The notes under the pieces: generated by a model
Database searches by the model: none
The model's input: only the letters and a program-made list of their open reading frames with translations
What the model was told of the DNA's origin: nothing
In this document: positions 38,574 through 64,000 of the stretch, one piece after another
How the letters are laid out: the number at the start of each line of letters is the position of its first letter
Numbering within the stretch: position 1 is the first letter of the stretch
Origin: Adineta ricciae
Lineage: Eukaryota; Rotifera; Eurotatoria; Adinetida; Adinetidae
Direction: 5' to 3'
Assembly: GCA_905250025.1 (NCBI GenBank)
Contig: CAJNOJ010000012.1
Location: forward strand, 248,001 to 312,000
DNA length: 64,000 bases
Translations under genes and position numbers: made by a program

Positions 38574-39751
38574 CGTATTAATTTCAAAGTTTGTAATGAG
38601 GAAATAGAACCCAAGACGACATTATTTGCTTCGTTACTCAGGATATTGTCGATAGCAACCTCTAGACTTTTACTGAACCATGTAACATAGCGACCTCTAA
38701 TGATAAGCATCTTTTGTTCTTATTAAAAAAAGAAACTTTTATAAAAGATAGATGATCTTAATCCAATGAGTCGGATTTGAAGACATTCTGACTGATAGAT
38801 GGCTTTTGCTTAATTACGTATAGTGACAGTATGTGTGAATAAAACAAAAATTATCGAACGAGCAAAATAGTCATGCCACTTGAACAAATACTCATAATCT
38901 AATAACAAAGACTCTATAGAAACATTTTTTTTCTACTGACACATCATGTCTACAAAAGATTCTTTCTTTCATATCTTCTATAGTCCACAAAAGACAAACA
39001 AGAAATAATGATGCTTAACATGTGACTGAAACATTTGATAAACTTTTTGACTGAGTTAATTACGAATGTAATAGAAGGAATGTGTGATTGTGTCATCATC
39101 GCTTCGATGAAAAGGACTGAAATCCTTGGAGAAATAAACAAACTATCGACAAAATGCTTGTTTTGTTTTTCTTTTGCTGTTTTTTTTTATTGCCGGCCAC
39201 GAGAAAGAATAAACGAGAGACAAATAAACAATATGGATGATATATGTAAATAGAAAAAAAAAGAAACTAGAACGATCAATAATAGATAAAACGAAAAAAG
39301 AGACAAAAGTAATATATGTATATATTCATCATCATCATCATCATCAACATATTCAGAAATAGACAGTACGAACGAAGTAAAGGGACAGAGAGAAAGCAGA
39401 GAACATCTTTTTTAGCTGCAGTTACATATTTTCATAGTTTAGTTTTGTTTTCCGAATTAAAAATAAACAATCAAATGAAAAGAAAAGAAAAGGAGAAAAA
39501 AAAATGGAATTTCTATGTGCGCTGATGCACGGCCGATAGCTGATCTTTCACGTTTATATGCATGTTGTTTAGTTTATTCTGTAACGACATCGAACAAGAA
39601 AGAAAACGGAACGAAAATCAAAGAGTAGAAGAAATCGCAAGAAAGAAAAAAAAGAAGAAATATAGAAGATAGATTTAGTTTTGTGTGCATAAATATCAGC
39701 CGGCATATTTCATAAAAATTCTTCTGGTATTCATAGTTTTTTTTTCTCTTT
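38574..39751. other. Intergenic region, simple-repeat and purine rich
   Basis: No gene supported. Contains an ATC/TCA triplet run at 39326-39346, poly-A and GA-rich tracts near 39480-39510 and 39600-39660. The 39.6-39.75 kb part is the 3' UTR side of Rab1. Confidence 0.5.
39326..39346. repeat. (TCA)n trinucleotide repeat
   Basis: About seven tandem TCA/ATC units between FAM161 and Rab1. Confidence 0.85.
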
Positions 39752-40707
<956 letters not shown>

Positions 40708-41275
40708 TGTGATCGTTAATTATTTAAATTTGTTAGACGTTTTCTTCAATGATGGAGATCTCCGTTTGATCTGAAGATAAACTTATACGAAAGATATGAA
40801 AACTGATTATCAACTGGCGTTGAATAGACAGGTGAGAATAGAAGGGTGATGATGATGGTGATGATGATGACTCGTAGGCTGTCTACGTTTGATGTCAACC
40901 TTTCCAAGACAAGTTTAGCCACCATGAAGGTCGATTTTTTTTATTATCAACAAAGTATTCATCAAAATTTATAAAAACTTACTATTTCAAAGTTAACTAT
41001 TCAAAGACGATCATAAAACATGTTCTAAAATCAAATGCATAATTAATTTGCAAATATTTACATCAATGACTATTCTATTGGTCCATTGAACAACCAATCA
41101 TATATAATGGATCATCCGAGTACGTACTATTGAGCTGAACGATAAATTGTCGTATGATTTCTATTTCGCACAATTTATTATTCATGAAAAAATACATACA
41201 TCGATAGAACTAGATTCAATCCAGTAAAAAAATATATACAACACACAATCTGATTTGAAAACATCTGCATAAAGT
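40708..41275. other. Intergenic region between Rab1 and SMC2
   Basis: No gene is seen. A short GATGATGATG run lies near 40848-40871. It must hold the Rab1 promoter and the SMC2 3' end. Confidence 0.5.
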
Positions 41276-44200: not shown

Positions 44201-45227
44201 GACCAGTTCTTTATCATAAACTGTTTGTAATTCTGATACTTCATTGCCAACATCTACAAAAAACAGATCTCTATAAAAGAAATTTGTCGTGCCACTAATT
44301 ATTTACTTTCGTTTCTCTCTTTCTCAATACTTTTCACTTCAGCATGAATTTGTTGAATCTCTTCTGTTATATCACCATTTCGTTCTTGATATTCACTAGT
44401 TTGTAATTCCATATTTTCTACATCGATTTCTGTTTGTTTAACCGATGTTATCAATTGCCAGTATTCGTAAGCAATCAATTGATCGTTAACTAATTTATAA
44501 CGTTTTTTCAACTCAGTATACATTTTATAGTTTTGTTCATCTTGTTGCAATTTATTAATCGTTGGTGTAATATCAGTATCGATCGTTGTACGAATTTCTT
44601 TTAATTTATCATCTTTTTTAGCGATCGTTTTCAAAGCTTCAGCTTTCTTTTGATCGTACATACGTGTACCAGCAGCTTCTTCGATGAGACCAAGAATTTC
44701 TTGCGGCTTGGATTTGGACACTTTCGTCACTTGACCTTGTAAGATGAGAAAGCGTGGATTGTTCACATTCAACGAAACCGATTTGAATAGATCATGTATC
44801 GCTGATTGCGTAGCATTTTTTCCGTTTAACAAATATTTCGACTTGTTTGATTCAACAATACGTGTAACAGTCAATTCATCAACTGAAATGAAAACAAAAA
44901 TTTTATGTTGATATCAAAAAGTCAAATGAACATACACATTTTGTAACCATCAGGGGCTTGCTCTTTATTTCGGTTATCGAACATGATGGAAACACTCGCT
45001 CGTGTAACACCAGCAGTACCTTGTTTATAGATGAAATCCGATAACGCTTGAGCACGAACTTGAGAGAGCGATGTAATGCCCATGACAAAACATATTGAGT
45101 CAAGGATATTGGATTTTCCACTGCCATTTAAACCTGTTATAGCATTGAAATATTCATCAAAGGGGCCTACGGTTGTTCGAGTGGCATAGGATTTGAAACC
45201 TTCAAGAACAATTTCACGGATGTGCAT
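41276..45227 (-). CDS. SMC2: SMC2, condensin core ATPase subunit
   Basis: Pairs with SMC4 in condensin I/II to compact mitotic chromosomes. Seven exons: 44936-45227, 44307-44882, 43829-44253, 43354-43777, 42501-43295, 41910-42451 and 41276-41851, 1209 residues in all (human SMC2 is 1197). Walker A is GLNGSGKS at about 32-39. The head continues through [18 protein letters not shown] and [12 protein letters not shown], both SMC2-typical. Two long coiled coils flank a hinge (about 515-690). The C-terminal head has the ABC signature LSGGQ (about 1112-1116) and Walker [13 protein letters not shown], then the HTQN and SLKDGMF segments. The first donor was set at 44935 (GTATGT) because it alone keeps frame. 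No damage is visible. Confidence 0.97.
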
Positions 45228-47689
45228 CGTGAACGTTTAGAAACAAGTTATCAAATGAACTTCAGCTCTTATTGATTGAATTCAACGGTTTTCTTTCTTT
45301 CAATTCATAAAAAAGAAGATCGGAAACGACAAATCAATAGTTAGCGTAGATGGCGTTGTATTATCCTTTGAATCGCACATGTTACTTTCTTCTTACTGGA
45401 TTGTTCGACCCCGGATGGGATGTGTATTCCATATAATCTGTCGAGGAAACAAGATGACACCATAAAACATCGACCTAAATCATCCTGCAGTACATACTTT
45501 ATGTCTTATATGACCAATACAGCTATCCTTTGTATCTCAAAGGTAAATCGTTTCCCCGTGGTGCCTATGATGCCTGGCCGTCAATTTTACGTCATGATCT
45601 TAAAGTGCATAAAGAACAAAACTCTATGAAATGTTCATGTACCTACGTAAGATATGTGGCTGTACATTAACGGGAAGTATCATCGGTAGAACTCAATTAA
45701 CTTCTTCCATATTAAAACTGCTTGATGGATTTGTAAGCTTCACATAGTTTTTCTTTCAAAGGCGGGAATAGAAATGGATTTCCTTCATTTTTAGAAACCA
45801 GCTGGATACTGTCGCCTAGTCATTTGTCTGTAGTTATTTTTTTCTATCTGTTAATGTCAAAATATTCTTTTCTCTTTACATAGAGGAATTTTAGAATTAT
45901 AAACAAATAAATTAAGATTCCCTTAAAAACAAAAAAGAAGACAGAAAGCTTTGATGAATTATTGGAATTATTTTTCGTATGATTGATAACGATGGAATCT
46001 TCTTGTCAAGAGTTCTATTGTTTTTCAGTGGAACATTCAAAGATTTCACGTGTTGATCCCGCGTGTTTCTTCTCAAGTCGTTCAATCTTGTTTTTTTCTT
46101 CTCGCTATGAAAGTCCTGCACAAGAATATTCTCCACTTTAAAGAAGTATATTTTTCCGAATCAATTAAACCGATAAGATATTTACGAAATCATAGGATAT
46201 ATTCTCCTAATGTTCTTCTATTATCAATATTTAGAAAAGCAGCGCATACACGCCAGTATTGAACTTTTTCACGCTGCAAACAACAAGAAAAAATTGAACA
46301 AATATACATGAAACATTTGCATGAAGATATTCTGACGTAATGTGACCAATTAGTAGAATAAGTGAATAGACAGTCAAAATATAGACATGGGTATAGTATG
46401 CGTGTTGATTGAGCAATATTTCAAAAATTTCAGTCGATATGTGGAGAATGACAGTAGAAAGAGAAAATTTATTTAGAAAACTCGATATCATGCATGGATT
46501 GGCTAATTAGCATCCTCACAGTGGTAAAATAAACGAAGCATATCAAAGAATATTCTAAGTAGAAATTGAATGAACTTTTTTTCGCACGTTTCAAAGTAAG
46601 AGATCGAAGGAGAAAGTAGATCCAACACTTATCTCCTGACATTGTAGAATGAAAAAGAGGGTATCAATCGATGTCTTACTTTGTTATGTTTCAGAAAGCA
46701 ATTTTTCACAAGGCACATATGAGCTTATCGATTTTTAACTCTACAGGTAATCTTCATCCTCAAGATGTGATTCATACCTGTAATTCTTTATCCAATGGAA
46801 GTAAATATGAAAACGAATAACTATTTATTGATACTCAAAATTCATCTTTTTTAAATTTTAACTATGCGTGAATTACAGCGTGATACTTGATTGACTGTTA
46901 TTATGATTTTCATTTTAATTTTCAACTTCATCATCTTTGCACTGTTCAGCCACCTAGTACTATCACGTCGAACAGAAATACTACTTGTCAACAAAATGCC
47001 TGAGATATACAATTACTCAATTGTATACGTTGCATGTTTACGGTATTTGTCACTGTATGAACTCTTGTCAGTGCTTTGAGCGTCGCTGATCTATATCAGG
47101 TTATCTGGTGTACTTTCCCTCGGTTTAACCTCCGTCAAATGTAATTAATCAATCGATTGATTTATTCATCTATAATTGTGAAATTCATCAATATTTAACA
47201 AAACGAATATATCGTCTTTTACACGATTACGTAATCACATTTCGTTGTCTTCCTCGCAAGGCGGTATTGAACTGTAGGAAGTTCAAACGACTCTTTTCGT
47301 TCGAATTCTTTTGCGTTTAAATACAACCCATCTTTGATTCTGTCTACTACTGTCATCATCTAAACAGCTCGTCTTTAAATCTGTTCACTACACTGAGCAG
47401 GTAAACTTGATTAATTGAAGCATTCCATTCGCAAAAAGACTTCAAAGACAATATACTCCAGCGGTGAAACATAAAAGAATACTAAATAGATATGAATAAA
47501 ATCAAGTCTCGAATGCGGAAAAAAGTTCCGTACGATGTAAAGAATCATCAAGTGTGTTGATGAAGAATAAATTTGAAGAATGATGGATACTTATTATATG
47601 CGTTTCAATTCTTTCTTGATGAGTATATTATCATCAACTTTCACTTTATTCAGTAAACATTCTTTTCCATTTATGAACAAGCAAAACTG
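45228..47689. other. 2.5-kb region without a supported gene
   Basis: Several short hydrophobic open frames occur on both strands (minus 46231-46491, plus 46891-47079). They have no start context, splice partners or domain. They could be chance frames in AT-rich DNA or very old GPCR debris, and I cannot decide. The end holds the promoter of the orphan GPCR; the SMC2 promoter is at the start. Confidence 0.45.
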
Positions 47690-48612
47690 ATGGATACGGC
47701 AGCCTTCTCTGTCACCCTTATCACTATTATTGTTCTATTGATTGTTATTATTTCATCTTTCATCTATGTAATCCCAATAATTTTCGTGCGTCGTTTTCAT
47801 ACAGGAGCTAATGTTCTTCTTGTTGGTCTCAGTGTAAATGGTATTATCTGTTCGATCTTGTGGGTTGTATGGAATTCAATTTCTATTATTAATCCAACAC
47901 TTTTGGTTAAATCGAAAGAGATCTGCATTGCGATGAACTATTTGTCAACATTAGTCAATAGTTTAATAATTTATTGTCTAGTAGTCATAACGATCAACCA
48001 GTTTTTCGCAGTTATTTATCCTAAAAAGAAATTATTTCATACCGTAAAGTGTGCCATCTTTTCAATAACGGTCCAATGGATTGTTTCGATTATTGTATCA
48101 ATACCTGACGTGGTTATTTCAGTTCCAGTAAATCTCAACAATTTATAAAATACATCATTTGTCTTTCTTCTAATAAATTTTAGGTTTGTGTAAACGGTGT
48201 TGACGCACCTCGATGGCTCTACATCTATAGATTTGTCACTATTCTCGTATTTCCATCGATTCTAAAGATCGTTCTCAATGCTTCGATATTTTGTTTTGTT
48301 CGATCATCTACTCGACGAGTTAAGCCTAAAGAAAACGCGAAGGGATTATCGAATGCTAGCCCCAAATGGAAAAAAACACGAGATACACAATTACTCAAGC
48401 ATATGATTTTTCTCTATGTGGTATTCATTTTTGGGTGGGGACCAATTTATCTCCTCCCAATAGCTGCTTCGTTTACAACTGTATCACCACTGGTCCTTGC
48501 GATTTTTCAATTATTACCCGTGGTTAGTTCGTTTACTATTGTATTGGATTTATTCTACTACAATCGCGATCTCATAAGATATTTTAAAGAACAATGTTTA
48601 AAATGCTTCTGA
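47690..48612 (+). CDS. Orphan rhodopsin-like G-protein-coupled receptor
   Basis: Exons 47690-48127 and 48184-48612 give 288 residues with seven hydrophobic spans. TM1 is at the N-terminus with almost no ectodomain. TM2 is ANVLLVGLSVNGIICSILW, TM3 runs LVNSLIIYCLVVITINQFFAVIYP, and TM7 is LPVVSSFTIVLDLFYYNRDLI. Departures from the class A consensus are clear: DRY is replaced by NQFFAVIYP and NPxxY by LDLFYY. A TM3-ECL2 disulfide is plausible (EICIAMNYL and VCVNGVDA). The sequence resembles fast-diverging invertebrate chemosensory or peptide receptors, and the ligand is unknown. It lies 1.7 kb upstream of a neuropeptide precursor in the same orientation. Confidence 0.8.
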
Positions 48613-50354
48613 ATCAATCAAAATAATTTTTCAAAGAACGTATCATTTTAATAAATAGTTAGAAGCAAATAAATCGTTGACAGTTTCATTCAAAGTGATG
48701 GTTTATAAAACATTCTGATGCATTATCCCACGTAATTTGTGTTAAACGTGAACTAATGGAAGTGCAAAAGACTAGGGATTAAGGAAATTTGCATTTATTC
48801 CATTAATAAAGATCAAAAGTTCGGATGAATGTCATAGATTGCTTAGTTCATCGAGTTTTAATAACAGAAGTGCAGATCGCGCGTGTTTTGGGAATTCATC
48901 TCACAAGATTAGCACTAAATTATCATTTTTATCACTATAAATAGTTGCCATTAGAAAAGATGAGTTGATTTGTTTTTATTTGTTTATATTTATACCGATT
49001 ATATTACAACGTAATAGAACATGTGCACTCGATGCTCGCGCTAAAGTCAATAGGAAATAATCAGATTGATTTCCACCTTGTTTGATGTGCGGCATCTGTA
49101 AATTTCGGCGAAACTAGGTTTCTAATAAATTATTTACACTTTCTCGACTGAAAGATCGTTTTCGCGAAAATAACGCTTTATATACGTCTCTCCTTACTAA
49201 AAACAATGATTTAACGGACATTTCCAATGTAAATAAACTTTGTTTCCGCGAGCACATACTTAAAATGTTTGACTTTTTCTTTTTCCACGACTTCATTTGT
49301 GAGTAGAACTTCTATCGCACTGGAGCATAGCATTTTCAGCAGTCTTTGGCGAACATCAACAAATGATAGAGAAGTAGTCACGAAACACTTGGAATTACAA
49401 GAAGATTATTCGCTCATAAGTAACTCTCCTCGTAGAAATGCAGGATAATAAAGATATGTTTTGTTTCATTACCTCAGCGCTTTCTAACAGATGAATACAT
49501 TTGTTTTTCTGAGTTTAGATCGAAATATCACTATCCAGATTAGCAGAAAGTTTTCTAGAATAGTATTACTAGTTTTAACTGTGTGCGTGAGATCAGAACA
49601 TTTCTACGAACGTAGGCGCTGAAAAATCGTCGCTTCGAGTTTTGTAAGAATTATCCTGAGAAAACAAGTACATGACTAAAATAAATCGTCAGTCAATCCT
49701 TCGAAGATAATTTCATGTAAATCGATTACAGATAGACATTTCTGTATTTTTATCCGACTCTGCTTGTCGTCACATCTAACAACACTATATATCAGTGCTA
49801 TTGAACATGGAATTCTTTCCTTTATGAAGTAGACAAGTCACACACACTCGTATAGATTTTTTTCTCAGTGAATTAATCAGAAGAAATATGACTTCGAATA
49901 AATTATGTGTGTCTTTATTCTTTGTACTATTTCCACTGACTAGTGACAAAGAAAGAACTCAACGACTTTGTATTCGATAAAGACACATTGGAAACAAATG
50001 GGAGATAAAATATGCACACACATCTCTTTATTCAATTAACGGCGATAAGTTCGGTCGAAAATGAGTGGGTGTTGTTCGATTTGATTGAGTGAGACAATCA
50101 GAGAATCGTCCAGGAGAACAGAGATATGTGTGAATGACGATTCCTGATGAGTTTGTTAACTGAATCTAATTCTAAGAGTCAGCATTAGTTGTCGGAAAGG
50201 AATCATATAGACTTTTCATACTGGTAGGCTCTGCTTTTGACACATTAATGTAAAAATATATTAGAGAGAGTGAGACGGAGAGAGCAAAGGTAACAGTACG
50301 ACTTTATATCACGGACATTCTTCAGTTTTTATTCTATTTTTTTAGCATAAAACA
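48613..50354. other. Upstream region of neuropeptide gene A
   Basis: No gene is seen. From 48909 onward this region is repeated at 60556-62007 with roughly 4-6% mismatches and a few short indels by eye. Close conservation just before the ATG (a shared ACTTTATATCACGGAC block and pyrimidine tract) marks a likely core promoter and splice acceptor. Confidence 0.55.
50334..50345 (+). promoter_or_regulatory. Splice/leader acceptor before neuropeptide gene A
   Basis: A T-rich tract ending TTTTTAG lies nine bases before the ATG at 50355. The same element stands before copy B (ending 61998). It is either a trans-splice acceptor or the end of a 5' UTR intron. Confidence 0.5.
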
Positions 50355-50648
50355 ATGTTGAAATATTTTCATACTCAACTGTTTGTGTTGACAATCGTGT
50401 CCATTTTTCTTCTATTATTTACGACTGTCAATTGTAGTTACAAGCAAAGTTACAATAACGATGTAAAGGCTGCGGTCTTATATGGACGACAATTGCCGTT
50501 CTTCAACGTAAAAACGTATAATTCTAATGAACAAGACAAGTCAAGCGATGAAGATGTGAACTTGATGATCCGAGATTCATTCAAACCTTATCCAAATCGT
50601 CGATCATTTTATGCTATGCGAGGGAAGCGACGGGCTATTTTGCCATAG
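50355..50648 (+). CDS. Amidated neuropeptide precursor, copy A (predicted SFYAMR-amide)
   Basis: A 97-residue single-exon precursor. Residues 1-27 form a signal peptide (TIVSIFLLLFTTVNC). The body is hydrophilic and acidic (DKSSDEDVN). Near the C-terminus, Arg82-Arg83 precedes SFYAMR, which is followed by Gly90 and Lys91-Arg92-Arg93. Prohormone convertase cleavage at both basic sites, carboxypeptidase trimming and conversion of the Gly would give SFYAMR-amide, leaving a short AILP tail. Copy A also has a single-basic LYGRQ at 42-46. There are no paired cysteines in the mature part. I do not recognise the peptide as a named family. The peptide reading rests on the cleavage grammar; receptor and function are unknown. 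It is convergent with a secreted S9 peptidase 361 bp away. Confidence 0.75.
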   Translation: MLKYFHTQLFVLTIVSIFLLLFTTVNCSYKQSYNNDVKAAVLYGRQLPFFNVKTYNSNEQDKSSDEDVNLMIRDSFKPYPNRRSFYAMRGKRRAILP

Positions 50649-51009
50649 TTTTTAAACAACATTTGCTTATATAAAAGAAATGTCATTTCATTGATTAAAA
50701 ATAAAATTTTTCCATTCAAAGTATTCTACATCCAGAATTTCAATAGAATGTCCATATTTCAGTACCACATTAAAATATTTGCATTAAAGAAAGGAAATGC
50801 GCATTATCTATCTATTAGTGCCTTGATAACAGAAACTCAAGAGATTTTAATGTTAAAATAGAGGAAGGAAAGTGTGCGTGAATCACTAAATTGAAGGGAA
50901 TGCTTGGTCGTAATAATCTGACACATGCAATTCTCAGCAAGAGTGAGCATGTTTAGATTAGACCAGGTGAAAGTCAGGTTTTTCTTTATTGAAAAAGTAC
51001 TATGACATT
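50649..51009. other. Convergent 3' gap between neuropeptide A and S9 peptidase A
   Basis: No gene is seen. AATAAA lies near 50700, just after the neuropeptide stop. The whole gap is conserved in copy B (62302-62662), with a similar hexamer. Confidence 0.6.
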
Positions 51010-53073
51010 CTACAAAAATGATTGATGTCCGTATTGTTTTAACCATTTTATTTCTTCGCGAGCTTTGATTTTTCCATGCCAAGGATTATCGGATAGTTCG
51101 TGTCCTTCTCTTGGAAAAACAAACAACTTAACTGGTACTCCTCGATAGTATAGTGCACGTTCCATAATGTAACTTTGACTTGCTGGCACTCGTATATCAG
51201 CTTCACCAGTTGTTATTAATGTTGGTGTTCGTATTCGATCTACTTGATAGATGGGAGACTGGCTCTGATAGATATGAGGCGTTTCCCATGGATAACCACC
51301 GAATAAATGTGTAAGGAGTGTCGGTATATCCATCGTACCCCAAGATGATGTATGATCAAAGGAACCTGCGCCAGACAAGGCAGCATTGAATTGCTTTGTT
51401 TGAGTGATTAACCAGTTCGTTAGAAATCCACCGTAACTGTAACCACCAACTGTAAGTCGATGTGGATCAGCAATTCCATCGCGAATTAATTGGTCAACGC
51501 CATGCAATATGTCTTGCCCAGCTATTTGCAAAGGTCGATAACGTAGTTCTTGAAGAAAAGCATCGCCATAACCTGTTGATCCTCGATAGTTTGGCTCTAG
51601 GACGAGCCATCCCTCGGAAGCAGCTAACGCTGACCACGTGTACCAATTTGGCGAAAAATGATTAATACTTGCTGCATAAGGTCCACCATGGATAAGAACG
51701 AGAAGTGGCAGATTTTTCGAGAGATATTTACCTGGCGGGTAGTGTAGCATTCCTTCGATCGTTCGGTGATCATCTTTATTCTGCCATCGATAAGGCAAAG
51801 CTCGTGGTAGATCACGTTCAGTGAATAATTGATTTTCACTAGTAATCGGTTGTGCATTTTGGAGTTGATCAATATCATTGATAAAATAAATCTCTTGAGG
51901 TGTATCTGTCGAAGAATAGACCATTGCCATTGAGTGCTGGTCCGTAACGGTGAGCATCTCATAACTACCGTTCCATCCAACATGTTCGATTACATCAGAT
52001 GACAATGATTTTAATGAATATAAATGAATTTCTGTTCCTAATTGTCCAAGAATATAAATAATTCCATCCGATGTCGGCATATAATTATTTATATTGCCAT
52101 GAAAATCTTGTGCTAAACGTGTAACTTGTCCATCAAGTAAATTTAATGCAGAAAGACTTATTTGTGTATTATTCAATTTCCTATTATTAGAATTGATAGT
52201 GTTCGTCTGGAATAGAAGATGTTGACAGTCCGGTGATAGTTTTAAATTACTTTCGAAATCTTCATTGTGTGTCAACCGAACAGGTGGTGAAGATGTATTC
52301 CGGAGATCAATTGAATAGATTTCAAAAAGATTCAAATCTTCCATTAAGAGTGATGCAGATATGACAAAAAGTTTTTGTTCTGTGGGAGCAAATATCAATT
52401 CACTAATAAAAAACGATAGATTGCTAACAACGGTCGTTTGCACAGATAAAGACTCTTTTGGTGAAATGATATCAACTTGAATAATCGAACTGTGTTCATA
52501 ACTTTTACTTTTCCGGTATTCAATAACATCTTTCCATTCGTCGTCCGTCGACGGCAGTGGTTTGTTAGTTGCAGCAACATAAAGTGAAAGATCAGTATCG
52601 GACCAAGTAAATTCTAAGGGAAGAGCGTCTCCTAGTTCAACAGATAGTAATTCATTCGATTCAATGGAATATAGATGAATACATTGTTGTGTTTGGGAAT
52701 GAGTTGAAGTAGATTGCCCATGAAGATCCGAATGTGTGGCATTGGCTGATGTTTGGTCGAGTAGTAATGCAATCCAAAGGCCATTCGGTGACCATTTTGG
52801 TTGAATTGTTTTGTGATGATTTCGTGTGATAAGTTTTGTTGTTTGTTTCTGAATTTCATAAATCCAAAGAGCGCTTTCAAATGAACTTGTGTTCCACGAT
52901 GCACGACGTGTTCCGAAGAACAAGTGTTCATTTGTTGGCGAGAGACTCAATGTTGAAAAGGCAGTAGCATCAAAGAACTCATCGAATGTCAATCGCTGTT
53001 TTGTTGGGTGTGAGTAACTGAATACAACGATCAGAATAAATAGAAAACAGAATCTTGTATTGATCTTCAACAT
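51010..53073 (-). CDS. Secreted S9-family serine peptidase (acylaminoacyl/dipeptidyl peptidase-like), copy A
   Basis: 687 residues, single exon. The open frame reaches a GTG at 53106, but the first ATG is 53073 and directly precedes a signal peptide (NTRFCFLFILIVVFSYS). The N-terminal ~400 residues have repeated SPTNEHLFF / WSPNGLW / SPDCQHLLF strands of the S9 beta-propeller that gates substrate access. The C-terminal alpha/beta hydrolase domain has the nucleophile Ser546 in GGYSYGG, Asp626 in GEADIRV and His658 in EGHE, a complete triad. These enzymes cut short peptides, often at or near proline or a blocked N-terminus. Many N-glycosylation sequons fit secretion. It is intronless among intron-rich neighbours, so horizontal acquisition or retroposition is possible. 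Confidence 0.9.
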   Translation of the reverse strand: MLKINTRFCFLFILIVVFSYSHPTKQRLTFDEFFDATAFSTLSLSPTNEHLFFGTRRASWNTSSFESALWIYEIQKQTTKLITRNHHKTIQPKWSPNGLWIALLLDQTSANATHSDLHGQSTSTHSQTQQCIHLYSIESNELLSVELGDALPLEFTWSDTDLSLYVAATNKPLPSTDDEWKDVIEYRKSKSYEHSSIIQVDIISPKESLSVQTTVVSNLSFFISELIFAPTEQKLFVISASLLMEDLNLFEIYSIDLRNTSSPPVRLTHNEDFESNLKLSPDCQHLLFQTNTINSNNRKLNNTQISLSALNLLDGQVTRLAQDFHGNINNYMPTSDGIIYILGQLGTEIHLYSLKSLSSDVIEHVGWNGSYEMLTVTDQHSMAMVYSSTDTPQEIYFINDIDQLQNAQPITSENQLFTERDLPRALPYRWQNKDDHRTIEGMLHYPPGKYLSKNLPLLVLIHGGPYAASINHFSPNWYTWSALAASEGWLVLEPNYRGSTGYGDAFLQELRYRPLQIAGQDILHGVDQLIRDGIADPHRLTVGGYSYGGFLTNWLITQTKQFNAALSGAGSFDHTSSWGTMDIPTLLTHLFGGYPWETPHIYQSQSPIYQVDRIRTPTLITTGEADIRVPASQSYIMERALYYRGVPVKLFVFPREGHELSDNPWHGKIKAREEIKWLKQYGHQSFL

Positions 53074-54021
53074 GGGATACGCCAGAAAAATGTTACAATA
53101 TGACACCTCGAAAAAGAAAAAGCGTTAAGCTTTATATATCTCAATAGACACTACTGATAAACTTTAGAATGGATTATGAAAGAAAATATGAGATTGAGTT
53201 TTGTGATATTTTATTTTCGATAGAGATTAACATTGCATACAACAGAAAGTAGAACAGATAATTTTTTCCTTGGTATAAACATTTTGGTTGCTAAGATCTC
53301 TAAGTTTATAGCTTGGAAATCTGGATTCATGACATCTGCCAATCGAGGATAGTTATCATCAGAACAAAATGCATTCTCGCAGGTGTTCATAACGATGTAC
53401 TTCGAATAGTATCATCGGTCTCGATGGAAACAGAATGTAATGCTAGGACAAGAAGCTGATGAATAGTAATCACGCATTATATTCATTAAGTAGTTATGCG
53501 ATCAAATGACAAACAACGAGACGTATATTACATCTAAATATGTGCATGTGTGTGTTTTATGATCGTTCTCTTGGTAACGTCAACTCGACGAGAAGAGATG
53601 TGAACAGGTGTGTGCAAGCTTAAATTCGCGGAGAAATGCAATAGAACAGAAAAGAAAATGATTAAACGAGAATAACAAGGAATGAGTTTTTCTTTCGGAA
53701 AAAAACCTGTCATGAGAAAGGAAACATAGTCATTATCTTTAAAAATGTGCTGTGCTTGTACCGAAAGATATCTGTAGGTATATTGCGTACACAAACATCG
53801 ATGCTTTATATGAGAGTTGGTTAGATTATCTTTCGATCTACTTGTTGCAGGATGATCGCTGAATCTCCAAAAGCGGTTTTGATCATTTTCATTCTTATCA
53901 TAAAACTTACTCTGCAATCACTTCAGAAAAACATACCGGTTCATTCTCGATGCCAATATTATGTTTCCTTTCAATTATAGAATATTTACATAAATTATTC
54001 ACGTCAAACATTTATACAATA
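53074..54021. other. Divergent promoter region, S9 peptidase A / PhoD-like
   Basis: No supported gene. The two flanking genes are transcribed away from it. A TTTCAATTATAG at about 53970-53981 could be the acceptor of a 5' intron or leader for the PhoD-like gene. The minus open frame 53534-53917 has no domain character. Confidence 0.45.
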
Positions 54022-56040
54022 ATGGCAGACAATGAACACGGTGAATATGAAATGGCAACTCCGACTGAGAAATATCGTAATTTGAATGCAAATGATCCAA
54101 ATCCTGTCAATCCAAATCCTCAAAGTAATACAGACTGCCCTCCACCTAGACAACACACAACAAAAATCAAAGCCATGCCACCACCATCGAACACGAATGC
54201 AAAAACACCCTCGATTAGTCGTCCACCGAGAAAACCAGGTCCAGCACTGGGACCGTATTATCATTTTATTAGTACTGATTTAAATCGAATGTTATGGCTT
54301 GGAAGTGCATTGATCTTCCGTGAAATTTCCTATGATCGTCCGCAAATTGAATTCACATCTGAAGCAAAATTAGATTTCAATTGGGAAGTTTTATATGATA
54401 ATATCTTTAACATGCGCGCATACCGTGTTAACATATCGATCGAATTACGCAATGGTGACGGTGATGATAGAATCGGATGGAAAATCGATTGGAGTGATCG
54501 AATAACTGAAGGCGCATTCCACATTGCTCGTTATAACCAGAAATGGCGTGGTGGTTTCTTTTCATGTAATGGTTTTGATGCAACTGTATCCGAACAAGCG
54601 AAATCTCACCTAATCTTCGAAAATGTCTGGGAACATTTAAATTCTGTTCATGCTCAAGTCTCATTACATCTGTTAATTTGGGGCGGTGATCAAACGTATA
54701 TTGACTTTATTTTTGAAGATGTTCCGTTTCTAAAAGATTGGGTGGATATGGAATGGGATGCAAAGTGGACATGTGACTTTCGTGATGACTTACGCGAGCA
54801 GGTCGAAGAATATCATTTCAACACCTATATCGAAAACTGGGAACGACCGGAAGTGAAAAACGCTTTAGCGTCGATTCCAAGTTTAATGATGTGGGATGAT
54901 CACGACATATTCGATGGAGCCGGCTCGTATCCGCCATTACTTCATGACAGCCCGATGATGACAGGTTTATTTAAAACAGCACAAAGAATGCGTCTATTAT
55001 TTCAACATCATACGACAGTCGAAAAAGCACGTGATCATGGTTTATTCGGATACCAAGGTTATAATTTTTTGACGTTTTGTGGTCCTAACTTAGCTATTCT
55101 TGGCGCTGATGCTCGTACGGAGCGTACAGCTGAAGTAGTTCAAGACGAACGATCATGGGATATGATATTTGATAGACTTGATAAACAAATTCAGAATATT
55201 TCGCATTTAATTATTTTATTTCCTGTGCCATTTTCATTCCTACGACTTAAAGTAGCAGAAACATGCTTTGAACATATAAAAAATCTCCCAAATAAATGCC
55301 GGCAATTACCACTTGTTAAACAGACGAATTCTATATTTGGTTTACCCGAACTCTACGATGATTTACTAGATGAATGGACACATGATGCACACATTGACGA
55401 ACGCAACCGTGCATTACGACATTTCCAAGAACTAGCCCAGAAAAAGCGTGTTCGAATTACGTTTTTCAGCGGTGACGTACATTGTTGTGGAATAAGCCGC
55501 TTTAAAACACATTCGAAAACCAATCCACTATCGATCTATGATCCGAAACTAATGTATCAAGTTATATCGTCTGCCATTGTTAATCTTCCACCGCCGCGAA
55601 CAGCCATTCATATCGCACATCTAGTTAAAACCACTTGGTATCCAATCGAAAATACGAAAGAAGAACTCGTCGATTTTTTTCAGCGTCAACCTGAAACTGG
55701 TAAAAGAATTCTACATAAGAAAATTCTTCCAAATCGTAATTGGTGCTACTTCGAGCAATGCGACGACATAGATCCAGCAATTTATACAACGACTGAAACC
55801 GGTTGTTTCGGACGATGTTTCACATCCAAAAACAGAACTACGCCTGAAACAGGTCCACTATCTAGGTCAGCAGAGTCACTTGCTCGTCAACATACGAATG
55901 GACCTGCACGTGCAGATACTGGGCAAGTTTATTCGACAACGCATACATTAAAAGTTCGATTGTGGATCGAAAGTGGACGAAAGCACCGTCCCGGAAGAGA
56001 ATTTGTTCATTATGATCTACTGATTCCAAATTTAATCTAA
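54022..56040 (+). CDS. PhoD-like metallophosphatase domain protein
   Basis: 672 residues in one exon. I chose the ATG at 54022 (MADNEHGEY) rather than the extension to 53950, which crosses a likely splice acceptor. Residues 1-85 are Asn/Pro-rich and disordered, with no signal peptide, so the protein is probably cytosolic. The PhoD-like core carries metal-binding motifs in order: GGDQ (221-224), WDDHD (291-295) and FFSGDVHCCG (about 481-490). Together these define the two-metal site of PhoD-type phosphatases and phosphodiesterases. A PTAQRMRLLFQHH-like helical stretch and GADARTER fit the family. Versions with this layout occur in fungi and some protists; animal copies are uncommon, so transfer is possible. 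The substrate is unknown. Confidence 0.85.
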   Translation: MADNEHGEYEMATPTEKYRNLNANDPNPVNPNPQSNTDCPPPRQHTTKIKAMPPPSNTNAKTPSISRPPRKPGPALGPYYHFISTDLNRMLWLGSALIFREISYDRPQIEFTSEAKLDFNWEVLYDNIFNMRAYRVNISIELRNGDGDDRIGWKIDWSDRITEGAFHIARYNQKWRGGFFSCNGFDATVSEQAKSHLIFENVWEHLNSVHAQVSLHLLIWGGDQTYIDFIFEDVPFLKDWVDMEWDAKWTCDFRDDLREQVEEYHFNTYIENWERPEVKNALASIPSLMMWDDHDIFDGAGSYPPLLHDSPMMTGLFKTAQRMRLLFQHHTTVEKARDHGLFGYQGYNFLTFCGPNLAILGADARTERTAEVVQDERSWDMIFDRLDKQIQNISHLIILFPVPFSFLRLKVAETCFEHIKNLPNKCRQLPLVKQTNSIFGLPELYDDLLDEWTHDAHIDERNRALRHFQELAQKKRVRITFFSGDVHCCGISRFKTHSKTNPLSIYDPKLMYQVISSAIVNLPPPRTAIHIAHLVKTTWYPIENTKEELVDFFQRQPETGKRILHKKILPNRNWCYFEQCDDIDPAIYTTTETGCFGRCFTSKNRTTPETGPLSRSAESLARQHTNGPARADTGQVYSTTHTLKVRLWIESGRKHRPGREFVHYDLLIPNLI

Positions 56041-56282
56041 CTCTATTTACAAACTTTTCTATTTTTATTGTTACATTTTTTTATTTCGAAATATTTTGCG
56101 CACATACTCGACAACTTTTCACTTAAGTAACATGATTGATAACGCCATCTATCCAGACATGTTTTCAACGGTCCTCTCAGATTAACCTAAAGACCAGTGA
56201 ATAGTTTTTTTTTCTATTTTATGCATTCATTTCATCGATTGATATGATATACGTACTAGAATTATGAAAATTGTTTCGGTTT

Positions 56283-56293
56283 CATTTTTTTAG
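56283..56293 (+). promoter_or_regulatory. Candidate leader acceptor before GNL2
   Basis: A T-rich tract ending TTTTTTTAG lies 12 bases before the GNL2 ATG at 56306. It suits a trans-splice acceptor or a 5' UTR intron end. Confidence 0.4.
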
Positions 56294-56305
56294 ACAAATT
56301 TCATC

Positions 56306-57934
56306 ATGTCGAAAAACAAGAATCGAAAAAAGAAAGGAGCAGCAGCTTCCTCAACCAAAAAAGCACCTTCGACATCACATTCACTTTCATTGAAGAATCG
56401 TTCATCATCAAAGGCAGCTACAGGATCTGTTAATGGTGCTAAGGTTCGTTCACAATCCACTGTCAAACGATTACAAATGTATCGTGGTGGAAAACCCAAA
56501 CGAGACCCATCAGGACGAATAACACAGGCAGCAGCGTTTCAAGAACGACTTCCATCCGGTACTCAAGCACGTGTCGCACCAAATCGTCAATGGTTTAATA
56601 ATAGCCGAGTAGTAACTCAAAATTCTCTACAAAAATTTCAATCAGCTTTGTCAACTACACTTGCTGATCCGTACCAAGTGGTAATGAAACAAACACAATT
56701 ACCGGTGACATTGTTAAATGAAAAGGGCAAGCAAAAACGTGCTCATATTCTCGATGTCGAATCGTATGGAACAACATTTGGACCAAAAGCACAACGAAAA
56801 CGACCAGCAAATGTCACCGGCGGTGATGATATGGAGGCATTGATGGCTCATGTTGAACGAACGCAAAGTGAATACAATCAGGATAAAGATCTTGATCTAA
56901 TGCGTGAAGATGACGGTGTAAAACAAGAAACAATGAATCCGTTGTTCAGAGCTGGACAAAGTAAACGTATTTGGAATGAACTTTACAAAGTACGAAGAGT
57001 TTCGGAGTAAATTCGCAATCTTCTTGCCTTTTTTCAGGTTATCGACTCATCCGATGTTGTCATTCAAGTTCTCGATGCACGAAATCCTGAGGGTACTCGC
57101 TGTCGACAAGTTGAATCTTATTTGAAAAAAGAAAAAGCGTATAAACATTTGATATTCATTCTAAACAAATGTGATTTGGTACCTGTTTGGGTGACACAAA
57201 GATGGGTAGCTATACTCTCTCGTTCACATCCAACACTTGCCTTTCATGCTAACATGAGAAAATCATTTGGTAAACAAGCATTAATCCAATTACTGAGACA
57301 ATTTTCTCGATTACATCAAGACAAAAAACAAATTTCAGTGGGCTTTATCGGGTAGGAACATCTCATAGAAAAGGAGAAAGAAAATCAATTTTCGTTTTTA
57401 CTTCAGATATCCAAATGTGGGTAAATCATCTGTTATCAATACCTTACGTTCGCAAAAGGTAACCTAAAACTTGAATTCTCCTATGTCCAAGACTTCAACT
57501 TGATTCACTAGGTATGTAATGTTGCTCCAATTGCTGGTGAAACGAAAGTTTGGCAATACATAACCTTGATGAAACGCATTTTTCTTATCGATTGTCCCGG
57601 AATTGTCTATCCAGCCGAAGATTCCGAAACCGATATCGTCCTAAAAGGGGTTGTCCGAGTTGAAAATGTACCGCATCCGGAACAATACATTGATGAATTA
57701 TTACAACGTGTTAAACGCGAATATATCTTGAAAACTTATTCAATTGATGATTATTCCACAACTGAAGATTTTCTAGAAAAATTAGCAAGAAAAACCGGCA
57801 AATTGTTGAAAGGAGCTGAGCCCGATCTCCAAACAGTGGCCAAGATGGTTCTGAACGATTTTCAACGTGGAAAATTGCCGCATTATGTTTCACCACCAGA
57901 AGATCCTGAGAAACAAGAAACCGAAGAAAAATAA
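56306..57934 (+). CDS. GNL2: Nucleolar GTPase 2 (NOG2/GNL2)
   Basis: A circularly permuted GTPase that drives late nucleolar steps of 60S ribosomal subunit maturation and export. Exons 56306-56989, 57038-57351, 57407-57458 and 57512-57934 give 490 residues. The basic N-terminus is Lys/Arg/Ser-rich and nucleolar-type. The NOG2 N-terminal domain includes [16 protein letters not shown] and [10 protein letters not shown] motifs are in permuted order: NKCD (G4, about 271-274), GYPNVGKSS (G1, about 333-341), a switch-I Thr in AGETKVWQY and DCPG (G3, about 377-380). A 52-nt exon encodes most of G1. The protein is shorter than human GNL2 (731) because it lacks the long charged C-terminal tail. Confidence 0.95.
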
Positions 57935-58079
57935 CGTTACTCTCTTGTTAATGTTTGTTTTCAGTTTATAAATAAAAACGATTCATAGATCGGTTGATCA
58001 TCATCGATCGCTCACACATCAAAATATCAATGATTCTACTGTTCGAATGAAACAAAAACGCGTGTTTTGCTGTACGAAT

Positions 58080-58574
58080 TTAATTCGTCTTATCAATTAG
58101 AGCAGTCATTCGAATAAATGTACCATAGTGAAAAATATTTTCATTTCTCGCTTCGAATTTCATTGAACATTGATGATATTGGTCGGAATAGAGTGTGATG
58201 GAACCGGTCGAACGATCATGATAAATAATTTGCTCGTCAATTGTTCGATTATTGATCAAGTGATAAACATGTTTAATTAAGTTGTTCGATAATAAAGATG
58301 TTCTTGATAAGCGTAATAAAAATGATTGCTTCTGTTCGGATTGAAGAGTTAATGTCATATTACCGAATGGAAAATGCCAGAAGAATGTCATTTCTCTATC
58401 TGAACATTGATCAATCGGTGACAAAATCGATACATGTGGACAATGGAACGAGGCCGGTGAAATGATAAATGAACAAGGATAATACGTCCACAAGGTTGCA
58501 TTCGATTCACATTGCGATGAAATTTTTTGAATATGGAATAGAACGATGAACAAGAACGATCTTAGTGACAACAT
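58080..58574 (-). CDS. Small secreted glycoprotein of unknown family
   Basis: 164 residues, single exon. A clear signal peptide (SLRSFLFIVLFHIQKISSQ) is followed by a mature part with five cysteines (C22, C34, C45, C58 and one near 136) and three N-glycosylation sequons (NAT, NMT, NRT). There is no transmembrane segment after the signal. I recognise no family. It is convergent with GNL2, 145 bp apart. An odd cysteine count in the mature part leaves one free Cys or implies dimerisation. Confidence 0.6.
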   Translation of the reverse strand: MLSLRSFLFIVLFHIQKISSQCESNATLWTYYPCSFIISPASFHCPHVSILSPIDQCSDREMTFFWHFPFGNMTLTLQSEQKQSFLLRLSRTSLLSNNLIKHVYHLINNRTIDEQIIYHDRSTGSITLYSDQYHQCSMKFEARNENIFHYGTFIRMTALIDKTN

Positions 58575-60554
58575 TGCATCATATCATATGTGTTATAAAG
58601 CATCATTTTGATAATAGAATTGACTAAATGAACGTGAATACTTACATGAACGCTGTCCGCTCGCAGGTGAGCCGATGGTAAATAGACGTCCACACACGTA
58701 GGGGAAATGTGTCATCACGCATTCGATCAATACGAGACTACATGTTTGTCTCTGGCGGGTAGGATAGATACCAATTATCATCGATTTAGCGATTACTCCC
58801 AACCATTATCTTTTGTTGATTATTCATTCAAACAAAAAAGCATCAGTAGACAAACTTGCACAAAAATAGTATTAGTAAACTGTTTACATTCGAGATTTTC
58901 GAAAACGACATCATCGTAGTAATTGTACTCGATTGGAGGCTTTATGGCACGTTGTTTGAATGGAAGTTTATGATTGAGATATAGCGTTTTTTTGTAGATT
59001 ACTCATTCGGAATTCATTGAAACCGAATGCTGGAGTTTGCAGCATGGATATGTTTTTGTTTGTTTTTAGTAGGATAATAGTAATTCTCGGAAAGAATCTA
59101 GACCTAGCGACGTGGAAGAAAAAGCTAAATCGATCGGATATTGATCGGAAATGATTACCAAATTAAGTTATTGCGTAGAGAAGACTGATTAATATCAAAT
59201 ACATGAACAGAAAATAATGATCCGTATTCGGCAATAGAAAGCTTTTTTTCCTTTTTCTTACAAAACTTTTCTATTTGAATATAATTTGCTATCGTCAAAG
59301 AGAGAAGAAACAGTAAAGCGTATTTAAACGCAAGGCTTTATTTGTTTATCAATGGCAATTCTCGCAATACGCAAAAAGTCTAATATGTAACTACTTCGAA
59401 CATATTCTTTGTTATAGTGAATGTCGAATGTTCATTTACACCTGACTATTGTAACTTTTCCATTTAATTGTTGTCTCGATTTTCTTGCAAGACTTTCTTC
59501 TTTCTTAAACATTACGTACCATTGTAAACATCGTCCATAATTAAGTAGTTTCTCTCTATCCTCTTATGTTTCTCTCGTTTTTTTTCCGTATGTCATTTCA
59601 GAGGTGATAGTGTATCGCAATAAAAAAAAGAAAGAAATGAACGAGAGGCGAGTCAAATATTAGCCGGCAAAGAGCGAGAGAATGAACTATTTTATGCGTT
59701 ATTCATACTATCATCTTTTACGTCTTTTTTCTTCAGTGAGGTGTATGCCTCTAAGGCATCGTTTCTTTTTTTGTTGTATTGAACACCTATCCTCTCTACT
59801 CGAGATTATACGCTGAATATACATACACGTAAATTTATATCCATCTTCATCCATCTTTCATGATCGTCTACCATCTGCTAACACCTGCGATAGACAGCAT
59901 ACTCTTTCTACCTTGTTCGCTCGACTAATTGTCGATACATTTTTCCAGAATCAACATTGCCTAGAGGGCAAATCCCGGAATATCGTTCACGTATGTGACA
60001 AAGGATTGACAATATATATATATATATATATTACATACGAAGAAAAGTTTTCTCTTTTATATATACACAGTGCACTTCTTCTTTTGTTTAAACTGGTTTT
60101 GTTAGGCGCGTATAGAGTGTAATGTAAAAAAGAGCCGATAGTGTTACTATTTGCTGCTCGGATGAAAGTTTGTCGATAGAAAAAAAGGAGAGAAACGAAG
60201 AAAAAATCTTTCAATATCCATATATTTCTTGCTCATGCATCGCTTTCTTATTGATAGTATTGGTAGACTGCAGCATCGTGCGTACATTGATTTGAAACTG
60301 TTTGCTATAGAGACTGACTATCGAAGCAAACAGTAATGAAGAAACGAGAGTTTCGTTTTACTATTTTTTTATTACAATCTGACATGTGCAATGCATATAC
60401 AAACAGCAAGTGTATTACTGCGATCAAGTTGAATACTGTGCATACATACAATTAATTAGAGAACGAAAAAAAAGGTAAACTTCGTGCGCCATCAGTTACA
60501 AATGTGGACAGAAGTGAAGAGACGAATACATCTTCATATATATATATGCACGTA
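58575..60554. other. 2-kb region without a supported gene
   Basis: AT-rich with poly-T tracts. An AT run lies at 60011-60031 and another TA run at 60538-60547 next to the gap. No coding or RNA gene was recognised. Confidence 0.5.
60011..60031. repeat. (AT)n dinucleotide repeat
   Basis: About ten AT units in the region before the assembly gap. Confidence 0.85.
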
Positions 60555-60555
60555 N
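60555..60555. other. Assembly gap (single N) at a duplication boundary
   Basis: The undetermined base lies exactly where sequence homologous to 48909 begins. To its left, the sequence bears no relation to the DNA preceding 48909. This marks a contig join. Confidence 0.9.
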
Positions 60556-61987
60556 TTAGCACTAAATTATCATTTTTATCACTATAAATAGTTGCCATTA
60601 GAAAAGATGAGTTGATTTGTTTTTATTTGTTTATATTTATACCGATTATATTACAACGTAATAGAACATGTGCACTTGATGCTCGCGCTAAAGTCAATAG
60701 CAAATAATCAGATTGATTTCCACCTTGTTTGATGTGTGGCATCTGTAAATTTCAGCGAAAGGACGTTTCTAATGAATTATTTACACATTCTCGACTGAAA
60801 GATCGTTTTCACGAAAAGCCGCTCTATATATGTCTCTCCTTACTAAAAACAATGATTTGACAAACATTTCCAGTGTAAGTAAACTTTATTTCCGTGAGCA
60901 CACACTTAAAATATTTGACTTCTTCTTTTTCCGCGACTTCATTTATGAGTAGAACTTCTATCGCACTGGAGCATAGTATTTTCAGCAGCCTTTGGTGAAC
61001 ATTAACAAATGATAGAGAAGTAGTCACGAAACACTTGGAATTACAAGAAGATTATTCGCTCATAAGTAACTCACTTCGTAGAAATGCAGGATAATAAAGA
61101 CATGTTTTGTTTTATTATCTCATCGCTTTCTAACAGATGAATGCGTTTGTTTTTCTGAGTTTAGATTGAAGTATCACCATCAAGATTAGCAGAAAGTTTT
61201 CTAGAATAATATTACTAATTTCAGCTGTGTGCGTGAGATCAGACCATTTCTATAAACGTAGGCGCTGACAAAATCGTCGCTTCGAGTTTTGTAAGAATTA
61301 TCCTGAGAAAACGAGTACATGACTAAAATAAATCGTCAGTCAATCCTTCGAAGATAATTTAATGTAAATCGATTACAAATAGAAATTTCTGTATTTCTAT
61401 CCGACTCTGCTTTTCGTCACATCTAAGAACACTATATATCAGTGCCATTGAACATGCGATTCTATCCTTTATGAAGTAGACAAGTCACACACACTCTTAT
61501 AGTTTTTTTCTCAGTGAATTAATCAGAAGAAATATGACTTCGAATGAATTATGTGCGTCTTTATTCTTTGTACTATTTTCACTGACTAGTGACAAAGAAA
61601 GAACTCAACGACTTTGTATTCGATAAAGACACATTGGAAACAAATGGGAGATAAAATATGCACATACATCTCTTTATTCAATTAATAACGATAAGTTCGG
61701 TCGAAAATAAGTGGGTGTTGTTCGATTTGATTGAGTGAGACAATCAGAGAATCGTCCACGAGAACAGAGATATGTGTGAATGACGACTCCTGATGAGTTT
61801 GTTAACTGAATCTAATTCTAAGAGTGGGTATTAGTTACCGGAAAGGAATCATATAGATTTTTCATACTGGTAGACTCTGCTTTTGACACATTAATGTAAA
61901 AGATATATTAGACAGAGCGAAAGAGAGAGAGAGAGAGCAAAGGTAACAGTATGACTTTATATCACGGACATTCTTCAGTTTTTATTC

Positions 61988-61998
61988 TTTTTTTTTAG
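61988..61998 (+). promoter_or_regulatory. Splice/leader acceptor before neuropeptide gene B
   Basis: A T-rich tract ending TTTTTTTTAG lies nine bases before the ATG at 62008, equivalent to the element in copy A. Confidence 0.5.
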
Positions 61999-62007
61999 CA
62001 TAAAACT

Positions 62008-62301
62008 ATGTTGAAATATTTTCATACTCAACTGTTTGTGTTGACAATTGTGTCCATTTTTCTTCTATTATTTACGACAGTCAACTGTAGTTACAAGCAA
62101 AGTTACAATAACGATGTAAAAGCTGCGGTCTTATATGGACGACGATTGCCGTTCTTCAACGTAGAAACGTATGATTCTAATGAACAAGACAAGTCAAGCG
62201 ATGAAGACGTGAACTTGATGATCCGAGATGCATTCAAACCTTATCCAAATCGTCGATCATTTTATGCTATGCGAGGGAAACGACGGGCTATTCTGCCATA
62301 A
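62008..62301 (+). CDS. Amidated neuropeptide precursor, copy B (SFYAMR-amide, plus a gained GRR site)
   Basis: 97 residues, same layout as copy A: signal peptide, acidic spacer, then RR-SFYAMR-G-KRR and the AILP tail. Four residues differ from copy A: Q46R, K53E, N56D and S75A. Residues 76-97, which contain the predicted mature peptide and both cleavage sites, are identical. Q46R (codon CAA to CGA) turns LYGRQ into LYGRR, an amidation-type Gly-Arg-Arg. That could release a second peptide ending in AVLY-amide from the N-terminal part. Whether B is an allele or a paralogue of A is unresolved because an assembly gap bounds the block. Confidence 0.75.
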   Translation: MLKYFHTQLFVLTIVSIFLLLFTTVNCSYKQSYNNDVKAAVLYGRRLPFFNVETYDSNEQDKSSDEDVNLMIRDAFKPYPNRRSFYAMRGKRRAILP

Positions 62302-62662
62302 TTTTTAAACAACATTTGCTTATAAAAAAGAAATGTCTTTTCATTGATTAAAAATAAACTTTTTCCATTCAAAGTATTCTATATCCAGAATTTCAATAGA
62401 ATGTCCATATTTCAATACTACATTAAAACATTTGCATTAAAGAAAGGAAATGCGCATTATCTATCTATTAGTGCCTTGATAACAGAAACTCAAGAAGTTT
62501 TAATGTAAAAATAGAGGAAGGAAAGTGTGCGTGAATCACTAAATCGAAGGGAATGTTTGGTCGTAATAATCTGACGCATGCAACTCTCAGCAAGAGTGAG
62601 CATGTTTAGATTAGACCAGATGAAAGCCAAGTTTTTCTTTATTGCAAAAGTACTATGACATT
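62302..62662. other. Convergent 3' gap in copy B
   Basis: Same length and layout as the gap at 50649-51009. An AATAAA hexamer near 62353 probably ends the neuropeptide transcript. Confidence 0.6.
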
Positions 62663-64000
62663 CTACAAAAGTGATTGATGTCCGTATTGTTTCAACCATT
62701 TTATTTCTTCGCGAACTTTGATTTTTCCGTGCCAAGGATTATCGGATAACTCGTGTCCTTCTCTTGGAAAACTAAACAATTTAACTGGTACTCCTCGATA
62801 GTATAGTGCACGTTCCAGAATGTAACTTTGACTTGCTGGCACTCGTATATCAGCTTCACCAGTTGTTATTAATGTTGGTGTTCGTATTCGATCTATTTGA
62901 TAGATGGGAGACTGACTCTGATAGATATGAGACGTTTCCCATGGATAGCCACCGAATAAATGTGTAAGAAATGTTGGCATATCCATCGTACCCCAAGATG
63001 ACGTATGATCAATGGAACCTGCGCCAGACAAAGCAGCATTGAATTGTTTTGTTTGAGTGATTAACCAGTTTGTTAGAAATCCACCGTAACTGTAACCACC
63101 AACTGTAAGTCGATGTGGATCAGCAATTCCATCGCGAATTAATTGGTCAACACCATGCAATATGTCTTGCCCAGCTATTTGCAAAGGTCGATAACGTATT
63201 TCTTGAAGGAAAGCATCGCCATAACCTGTTGATCCTCGATAGTTTGGCTCTAGTACGAGCCATCCTTCGGAAGCAGCTAACGCTGCCCATGTGTACCAAT
63301 TTGGCGAAAAATGATTAATACTTGCTGCATAAGGTCCACCATGGATAAGAACGAGAAGTGGCAGGTTTTTCGAAAGATATTTACCTGGCGGGTAGTGTAG
63401 CATTCCTTCGACAGTTCGGTGATCATCTTTATTCTCCCATCGATAAGGCAAAGCTTGTGGTAGATCACGCTCAGTGAATAAATGGTTTTCACTAGTAATC
63501 GGTCGTGCATTTTGGAGTTGATCAATATCATTGATGAAATAAATTTCTTGAGGTGTATCTGTCGAAGAATATACCGTTGCCATTGAGTGCTGATCCGTAA
63601 CAGTGAGCGTCTCATAACTACCGTTCCATCCAACATGTTCTGTTAAACCAGATGACAATGATTCCAATGAATATAAATGAATTTCTGTTCCCAATTGTCC
63701 AAGAATATAAATAATACCATCCGATGTCGGCATATAATTATGTATACTGCCATGAAAATCTTGTGCTAAACGTGTAAATTGTCCATCAAGTAAATTTAGT
63801 GCATAAAGGCTTATTTGCGTATTGTTCAATATCCTATCATTAGAATTAATAGTGATCGTCTGGAATAAAAGATGTTGACAGTCCGGTGATAGTTTTAAAT
63901 TACTTTCGAAATCTTCATTGTGTGTTAACCGAACAGGTGGTGAAGATGTATTCCGAAGATCAATTGAATAGATTTCAAAAAGATTCAAATCTTCCAATAA
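62663..64000 (-). CDS. Secreted S9-family serine peptidase, copy B (partial at window edge)
   Basis: The C-terminal ~445 residues are present and the N-terminus lies beyond the window. The frame is open throughout and differs from copy A by scattered conservative changes. The triad motifs GGYSYGG, GEADIRV and EGHE are all intact. No stop or frameshift suggests decay, so if this is a paralogue it is probably still functional. It is convergent with neuropeptide copy B, as in copy A. Confidence 0.88.
   Translation of the reverse strand, partial: LLEDLNLFEIYSIDLRNTSSPPVRLTHNEDFESNLKLSPDCQHLLFQTITINSNDRILNNTQISLYALNLLDGQFTRLAQDFHGSIHNYMPTSDGIIYILGQLGTEIHLYSLESLSSGLTEHVGWNGSYETLTVTDQHSMATVYSSTDTPQEIYFINDIDQLQNARPITSENHLFTERDLPQALPYRWENKDDHRTVEGMLHYPPGKYLSKNLPLLVLIHGGPYAASINHFSPNWYTWAALAASEGWLVLEPNYRGSTGYGDAFLQEIRYRPLQIAGQDILHGVDQLIRDGIADPHRLTVGGYSYGGFLTNWLITQTKQFNAALSGAGSIDHTSSWGTMDMPTFLTHLFGGYPWETSHIYQSQSPIYQIDRIRTPTLITTGEADIRVPASQSYILERALYYRGVPVKLFSFPREGHELSDNPWHGKIKVREEIKWLKQYGHQSLL

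Follow-up and report, generated by a model that had tools for sequence, protein, structure and literature searches.

The direct repeat in the right-hand part of the 64,000-nucleotide stretch that was analysed (the window) is almost certainly an assembly artefact, a heterotype false duplication in which two haplotypes of one locus, copies A and B, have been laid end to end. We favour this reading because B stands between gaps and exactly overlaps the contig that follows it, the copies differ by as much as an apparent allelic pair on two other scaffolds, the block and GNL2 exon 1 were each found in two copies only in the searches made, a second pair of the same layout (A′/B′) lies nearby, and other joins with 221-bp overlaps have likewise been left unmerged. 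The geometry of the joins, the copy number in searches and the divergence are all read directly from the assembly, which comprises 130.46 Mb in 1033 contigs. The window corresponds to C12:248001–312000, where C12 is a 914-kb scaffold; together with 100 kb on each side it makes up the 264 kb of C12 that we examined (GC content 36.0%, against 35.5% given for ARIC003 in PMC7943196). Positions without a scaffold prefix are those of the window.

The initial annotation had the sequence from 48909 reappear at 60556 in the same orientation, about 11.65 kb away, and self-BLAST of the window bears this out (60556–64000 against 48909–52347, direct, 94.3% over 3447 aligned columns, E = 0), with a measured spacing of 11,647 bp. 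Its observation that B begins at an N and has no left flank holds as well, and the mirroring that it envisaged beyond 64000, through PhoD and GNL2, does continue as far as a 50-N gap. The parts of the repeat that fall in the window are as follows:

48909..60554, + strand: copy A (probable haplotype 1), from self-BLAST; joined to the left flank without an N and ending at a single N
60555..60555, no strand: contig join between A and B, a single N, from self-BLAST and the survey of N-runs
60556..64000, + strand: visible part of copy B (probable haplotype 2); runs on to C12:320075 (window-equivalent 72075) and then meets the 50-N gap

With 100 kb added on each side of the window, the full repeat extends over C12:296909–308554 (A) and C12:308556–320075 (B); B is thus larger than the window shows, at 11.5 kb. 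The first base of B is homologous to 48909, and 121 bp are identical before the first mismatch. All of B aligns to A, and B stops 80 bp before A's end at the N. The copies differ by 603 substitutions in 11,473 aligned bases (5.26%; 420 transitions and 183 transversions), or by 591 in 11,471 (5.15%) with other alignment settings. Divergence per 500 bp ranges from 0.2 to 9.8%, and the BLAST alignment falls into two pieces of 92.9 and 95.1% identity.

The joins around the block are particularly informative. Copy A runs unbroken from unique sequence on its left (no N between C12:266504 and 308554). Copy B has a single N to its left (C12:308555) and 50 Ns to its right (C12:320076–320125; window-equivalent 72076–72125, just outside the window), beyond which lies a contig that we call contig C. 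The final 171 bp of B are, exactly, the first 171 bp of contig C; the 50-N gap is therefore false, the real gap being −171 rather than +50. A's final 251 bp also match contig C's first 250 bp (247 of 252 columns, 98%), so that A and B both lead into contig C. Differences between A and contig C persist until some 18 bp before the end of A, leaving no clean shared tail of k-mer length, unlike an ideal graph bubble. At the homoeologous locus on scaffold C49, an N-free sequence (C49:177766–182132) leads from the end of the block straight into the homologue of contig C.

That one chromosome carries a true tandem duplication of 11.6 kb, whose junction happens to fall where the assembler left a gap, is in our judgement very unlikely. 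Direct orientation and adjacency suit such a tandem, and A's end meets B's start at the N just as a tandem junction would, which counts against the haplotype reading. However, a true tandem would be expected to show gap-free sequence across its junction, and the point where A meets B is the N at 60555 itself. Also against a real tandem is the false gap to the right of B, where the exact overlap with contig C lies. The word "duplication" in the heading of the initial annotation is not supported as a biological event.

The 264 kb hold nine N-runs. At four of the nine, the contig ends on either side have an overlap of 171 or 221 bp that was left unmerged (three exact, one at 97.3%):

C12:320076: 171-bp exact overlap of the flanks
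C12:354358 and C12:355517: single N each; 221-bp exact overlaps of the flanks
C12:322810: single N; 221-bp overlap at 97.3%, with 6 mismatches
C12:266503: within a minisatellite of 24-bp period
C12:231555: left side recurs 1.8 kb to the right at 90.8%
C12:239671: flanks without similarity to each other
C12:308555 and C12:381004: single N between A and B and between A′ and B′

With nine N-runs in 264 kb, a randomly placed boundary would fall within one base of an N-run with a probability of about 1e-4; under a real tandem, the junction must coincide with an assembly gap at these odds twice in one scaffold. The minisatellite occupies 18325–18777, with its N at 18503. SSPACE-like scaffolders may record a negative gap as a single N. 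No printed statement of such a convention appeared in passages of two papers (PMC5368935, PMC8110574) or among the listings of a literature search. Three single-N joins share the overlap length of 221 bp, which together with the lengths of 121 and 171 at other places hints at a fixed setting of the assembler. Reading the assembler's k-mer from the run lengths 121/171/221, whose step of 50 is suggestive, led to no conclusion, as A′/B′ starts without such a run.

The only direct duplications of at least 3 kb in the 264 kb are A/B and a second pair outside the window, A′ (C12:355518–381003) and B′ (C12:381005–406245), which are 25 kb long, differ by 5.29% and are each preceded by a single N (355517 and 381004). 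When part of A′ (C12:356000–361500) was used as a query, it matched B′ at 83 to 95% in three pieces and otherwise sequences at 65 to 76% on scaffolds C49 and C181. A′/B′ is a second false-tandem block of the A/B kind. The alternative, that homologous haplotypes truly stand in tandem on one chromosome as linked homologues, and do so twice within 110 kb (blocks of 11.6 and 25 kb), strikes us as scarcely credible; linked homologues were described in the Adineta vaga assembly of 2013 and regarded as a sign of ameiotic evolution, as a later paper recounts (PMC5916493).

A control for the divergence is available at the homoeologous locus. Relatives at 65 to 78% of the left flank, of 20000–24000 and of the block itself sit on scaffolds C49 and C378, which is what a degenerate tetraploid should show for a homoeologous pair. 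Between C49 and C378 the identity is 93.8% over 4 kb, and two overlapping stretches give substitution levels of 5.40% (4,035 bp) and 5.14% (3,092 bp); from sequence comparison they are apparently alleles at the homoeologous locus, assembled on separate scaffolds. Over a further 397 bp at the C378 end the identity is 98%, so divergence between alleles varies along the sequence. The initial annotation had judged the A/B divergence to resemble that of alleles, and the 5.15 to 5.26% measured here indeed agrees with the 5.14 to 5.40% of the C49/C378 pair. The median homologous divergence in Adineta ricciae is given as 4.55% by Nowell et al. 2018 (PMC5916493). If A and B were instead a real tandem, its age would have to equal the apparent allelic divergence, and would have to do so twice. 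On C49, the PhoD gene lies on the + strand (C49:167877–169577) and the end of the block, with the homologue of contig C, on the − strand (C49:179266–181556); given these opposite strands, an inversion seems to separate the homoeologues C12 and C49. GNL2 exon 1 was not found on C49 in the assembly search.

To count copies, we searched the assembly with DNA queries; only the best candidates were scored, and all counts are among the matches listed. The query 60556–62000 returned two matches, B itself and A. For 53000–60500, 15 matches were listed: A, B (94%), a 99% piece of contig C that represents the A/C end overlap, and 12 at 68 to 74%. GNL2 exon 1 returned two matches, A and B (98%); that only two copies were found argues against a real tandem. 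The S9 peptidase returned 33: A, B (92%) and a further 31, of which the long matches stand at 42 to 52% and short pieces reach 65%. PhoD-like relatives at 68 to 71% occur in pairs 11 to 30 kb apart on C482, C352, C357 and C208; these pairs are either old tandem paralogues or further artefacts.

Assembly searches gave no second copy at about 94% for three neighbouring stretches, 45500–47500 in the left flank, C12:320376–322000 in contig C, and 20000–24000; 38000–48000 likewise gave no second copy at 94%, a weak result as the listing omitted the self match, which was present for 45500–47500. The second haplotype of the three stretches is therefore collapsed or missing in the assembly. It follows that copy number fits both the tandem and the haplotype readings and is, alone, no bar to a real tandem: a tandem pair with its own alleles collapsed or purged would give the same count, a point against the haplotype reading. 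A tandem carried by one homologue only (a heterozygous copy-number variant), the other homologue being represented by A or B as well, is likewise compatible with the counts in a partly collapsed assembly. It shares the coincidences of gaps and divergence that burden a real tandem, and for the two parts of the block that were searched no third copy at about 94% appeared among the matches listed; we consider it exceedingly improbable. What decides between the readings is not copy number but the joins, the level of divergence and the second case. The initial annotation had treated a stitched second haplotype as a serious reading, and the joins, divergence, copy number and second case together support it strongly.

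Both copies carry the same genes:

50355..50648, + strand: secreted-peptide precursor, copy A; 294 bp with stop, ending ...SFYAMRGKRRAILP; signal peptide, amidation and dibasic site recognized by eye
62008..62301, + strand: probable allelic precursor in B; 12 mismatches against A, no gaps, dN/dS 0.15
51010..53073, − strand: S9 prolyl-oligopeptidase-family peptidase, copy A (Pfam PF00326, E 9.3e-41)
62663..64000, − strand: probable S9 peptidase allele in B, truncated where the window ends; frame to C12:312726
54022..56040, + strand: PhoD-like phosphatase, copy A (Pfam PF19050, E 4.3e-68)
C12:313653–315647, outside the window: probable PhoD allele in B; 24 bp shorter, in frame
56306..57934, + strand: GNL2/NGP1-type GTPase, copy A; three open stretches, the first only matching PF08153 (NGP1NT, E 4.3e-44)
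From C12:315908, outside the window: probable GNL2 allele in B

Our recount of the precursor alignment returned the 12 mismatches in 294 bp of the initial annotation; one of the 12 falls within the stop codon. The precursor has no Pfam match and may be tachykinin-like; the two later GNL2 stretches also have no Pfam match. A rhodopsin-type G protein-coupled receptor (GPCR) gene at 47657–48612 adjoins copy A on the left, about 1.7 kb from the precursor; two of its stretches match PF00001, one of them under the curated cut-off. Open frames are kept in both A and B for the precursor, the S9 peptidase, PhoD and the three GNL2 stretches. Between the copies, dS is 0.09 to 0.18 and dN/dS 0.05 to 0.22 in five of these six stretches; the sixth lacks nonsynonymous changes. 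Both copies are thus apparently under purifying selection, judging from these substitution ratios, which with the intact frames fits what would be expected of two working alleles; the same frames and ratios would also suit a real tandem.

How two haplotypes might come to stand in succession can be sketched as follows. The genome would be highly heterozygous and degenerate-tetraploid, as in bdelloids, with A and B as homologous haplotypes (alleles). Differing by about 5%, they would have been assembled as separate contigs for that reason, and the scaffolder, following links that led both to one neighbourhood, would have placed them one after the other without merging them. We infer that read links caused this placement and that each copy would have half the depth of collapsed regions. 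The scaffold order (left flank with A, a single N, B, 50 Ns, contig C) would then stand for a true order, on one chromosome, of left flank, block and contig C, with the other version of the block on the homologous chromosome.

False duplication from two haplotypes is an artefact of an already known kind (PMC2864568, PMC9516828). The Vertebrate Genomes Project uses the term heterotype false duplication for both alleles of a heterozygous region in one scaffold with an assembly gap between them, as set out by Ko et al. 2022 (PMC9516828), and A and B lie on one scaffold on either side of the single N at 60555, with 50 Ns after B. To this we add two features, divergence at the allelic level (5.15–5.26% against 5.14–5.40%) and overlapping contig ends (171 bp exact for B/C, 98% for A's end), which are both present. 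Half-depth coverage, read-pair discordance and 1-copy k-mers are among the signs named there (PMC9516828). A/B works like a duplicated contained contig (DCC; Kelley and Salzberg 2010, PMC2864568), in which a contig aligns wholly to an adjoining one within 50 kb, although it lies outside the numerical definition. All of B aligns to A, where that definition asks for more than 93% of the contig, but its cut-off of more than 95% identity slightly exceeds the 94.7 to 94.9% of A/B by substitutions; the diagnosis described there includes a mate-pair test (PMC2864568). Scaffolds on which homologous blocks stand in direct tandem have been described in Adineta ricciae itself: Nowell et al. 2018 (PMC5916493) report two such blocks (ARIC00305 and ARIC00659) in a 174.5-Mb assembly and add that collinearity breaks often fall at scaffold gaps and that such architectures may be assembly artefacts.

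The two blocks amount to about 37 kb of redundant sequence within the 264 kb of C12 examined, and with two false blocks in that span, claims of tandem duplication from this assembly need checking against Ns first. Placed in succession, alleles raise the apparent number of genes and look like a recent tandem expansion, which here would involve a peptide precursor, a peptidase, PhoD and GNL2. In bdelloids such alleles can also be mistaken for linked homologues, which have been used to argue about asexuality, as recounted by Nowell et al. (PMC5916493).
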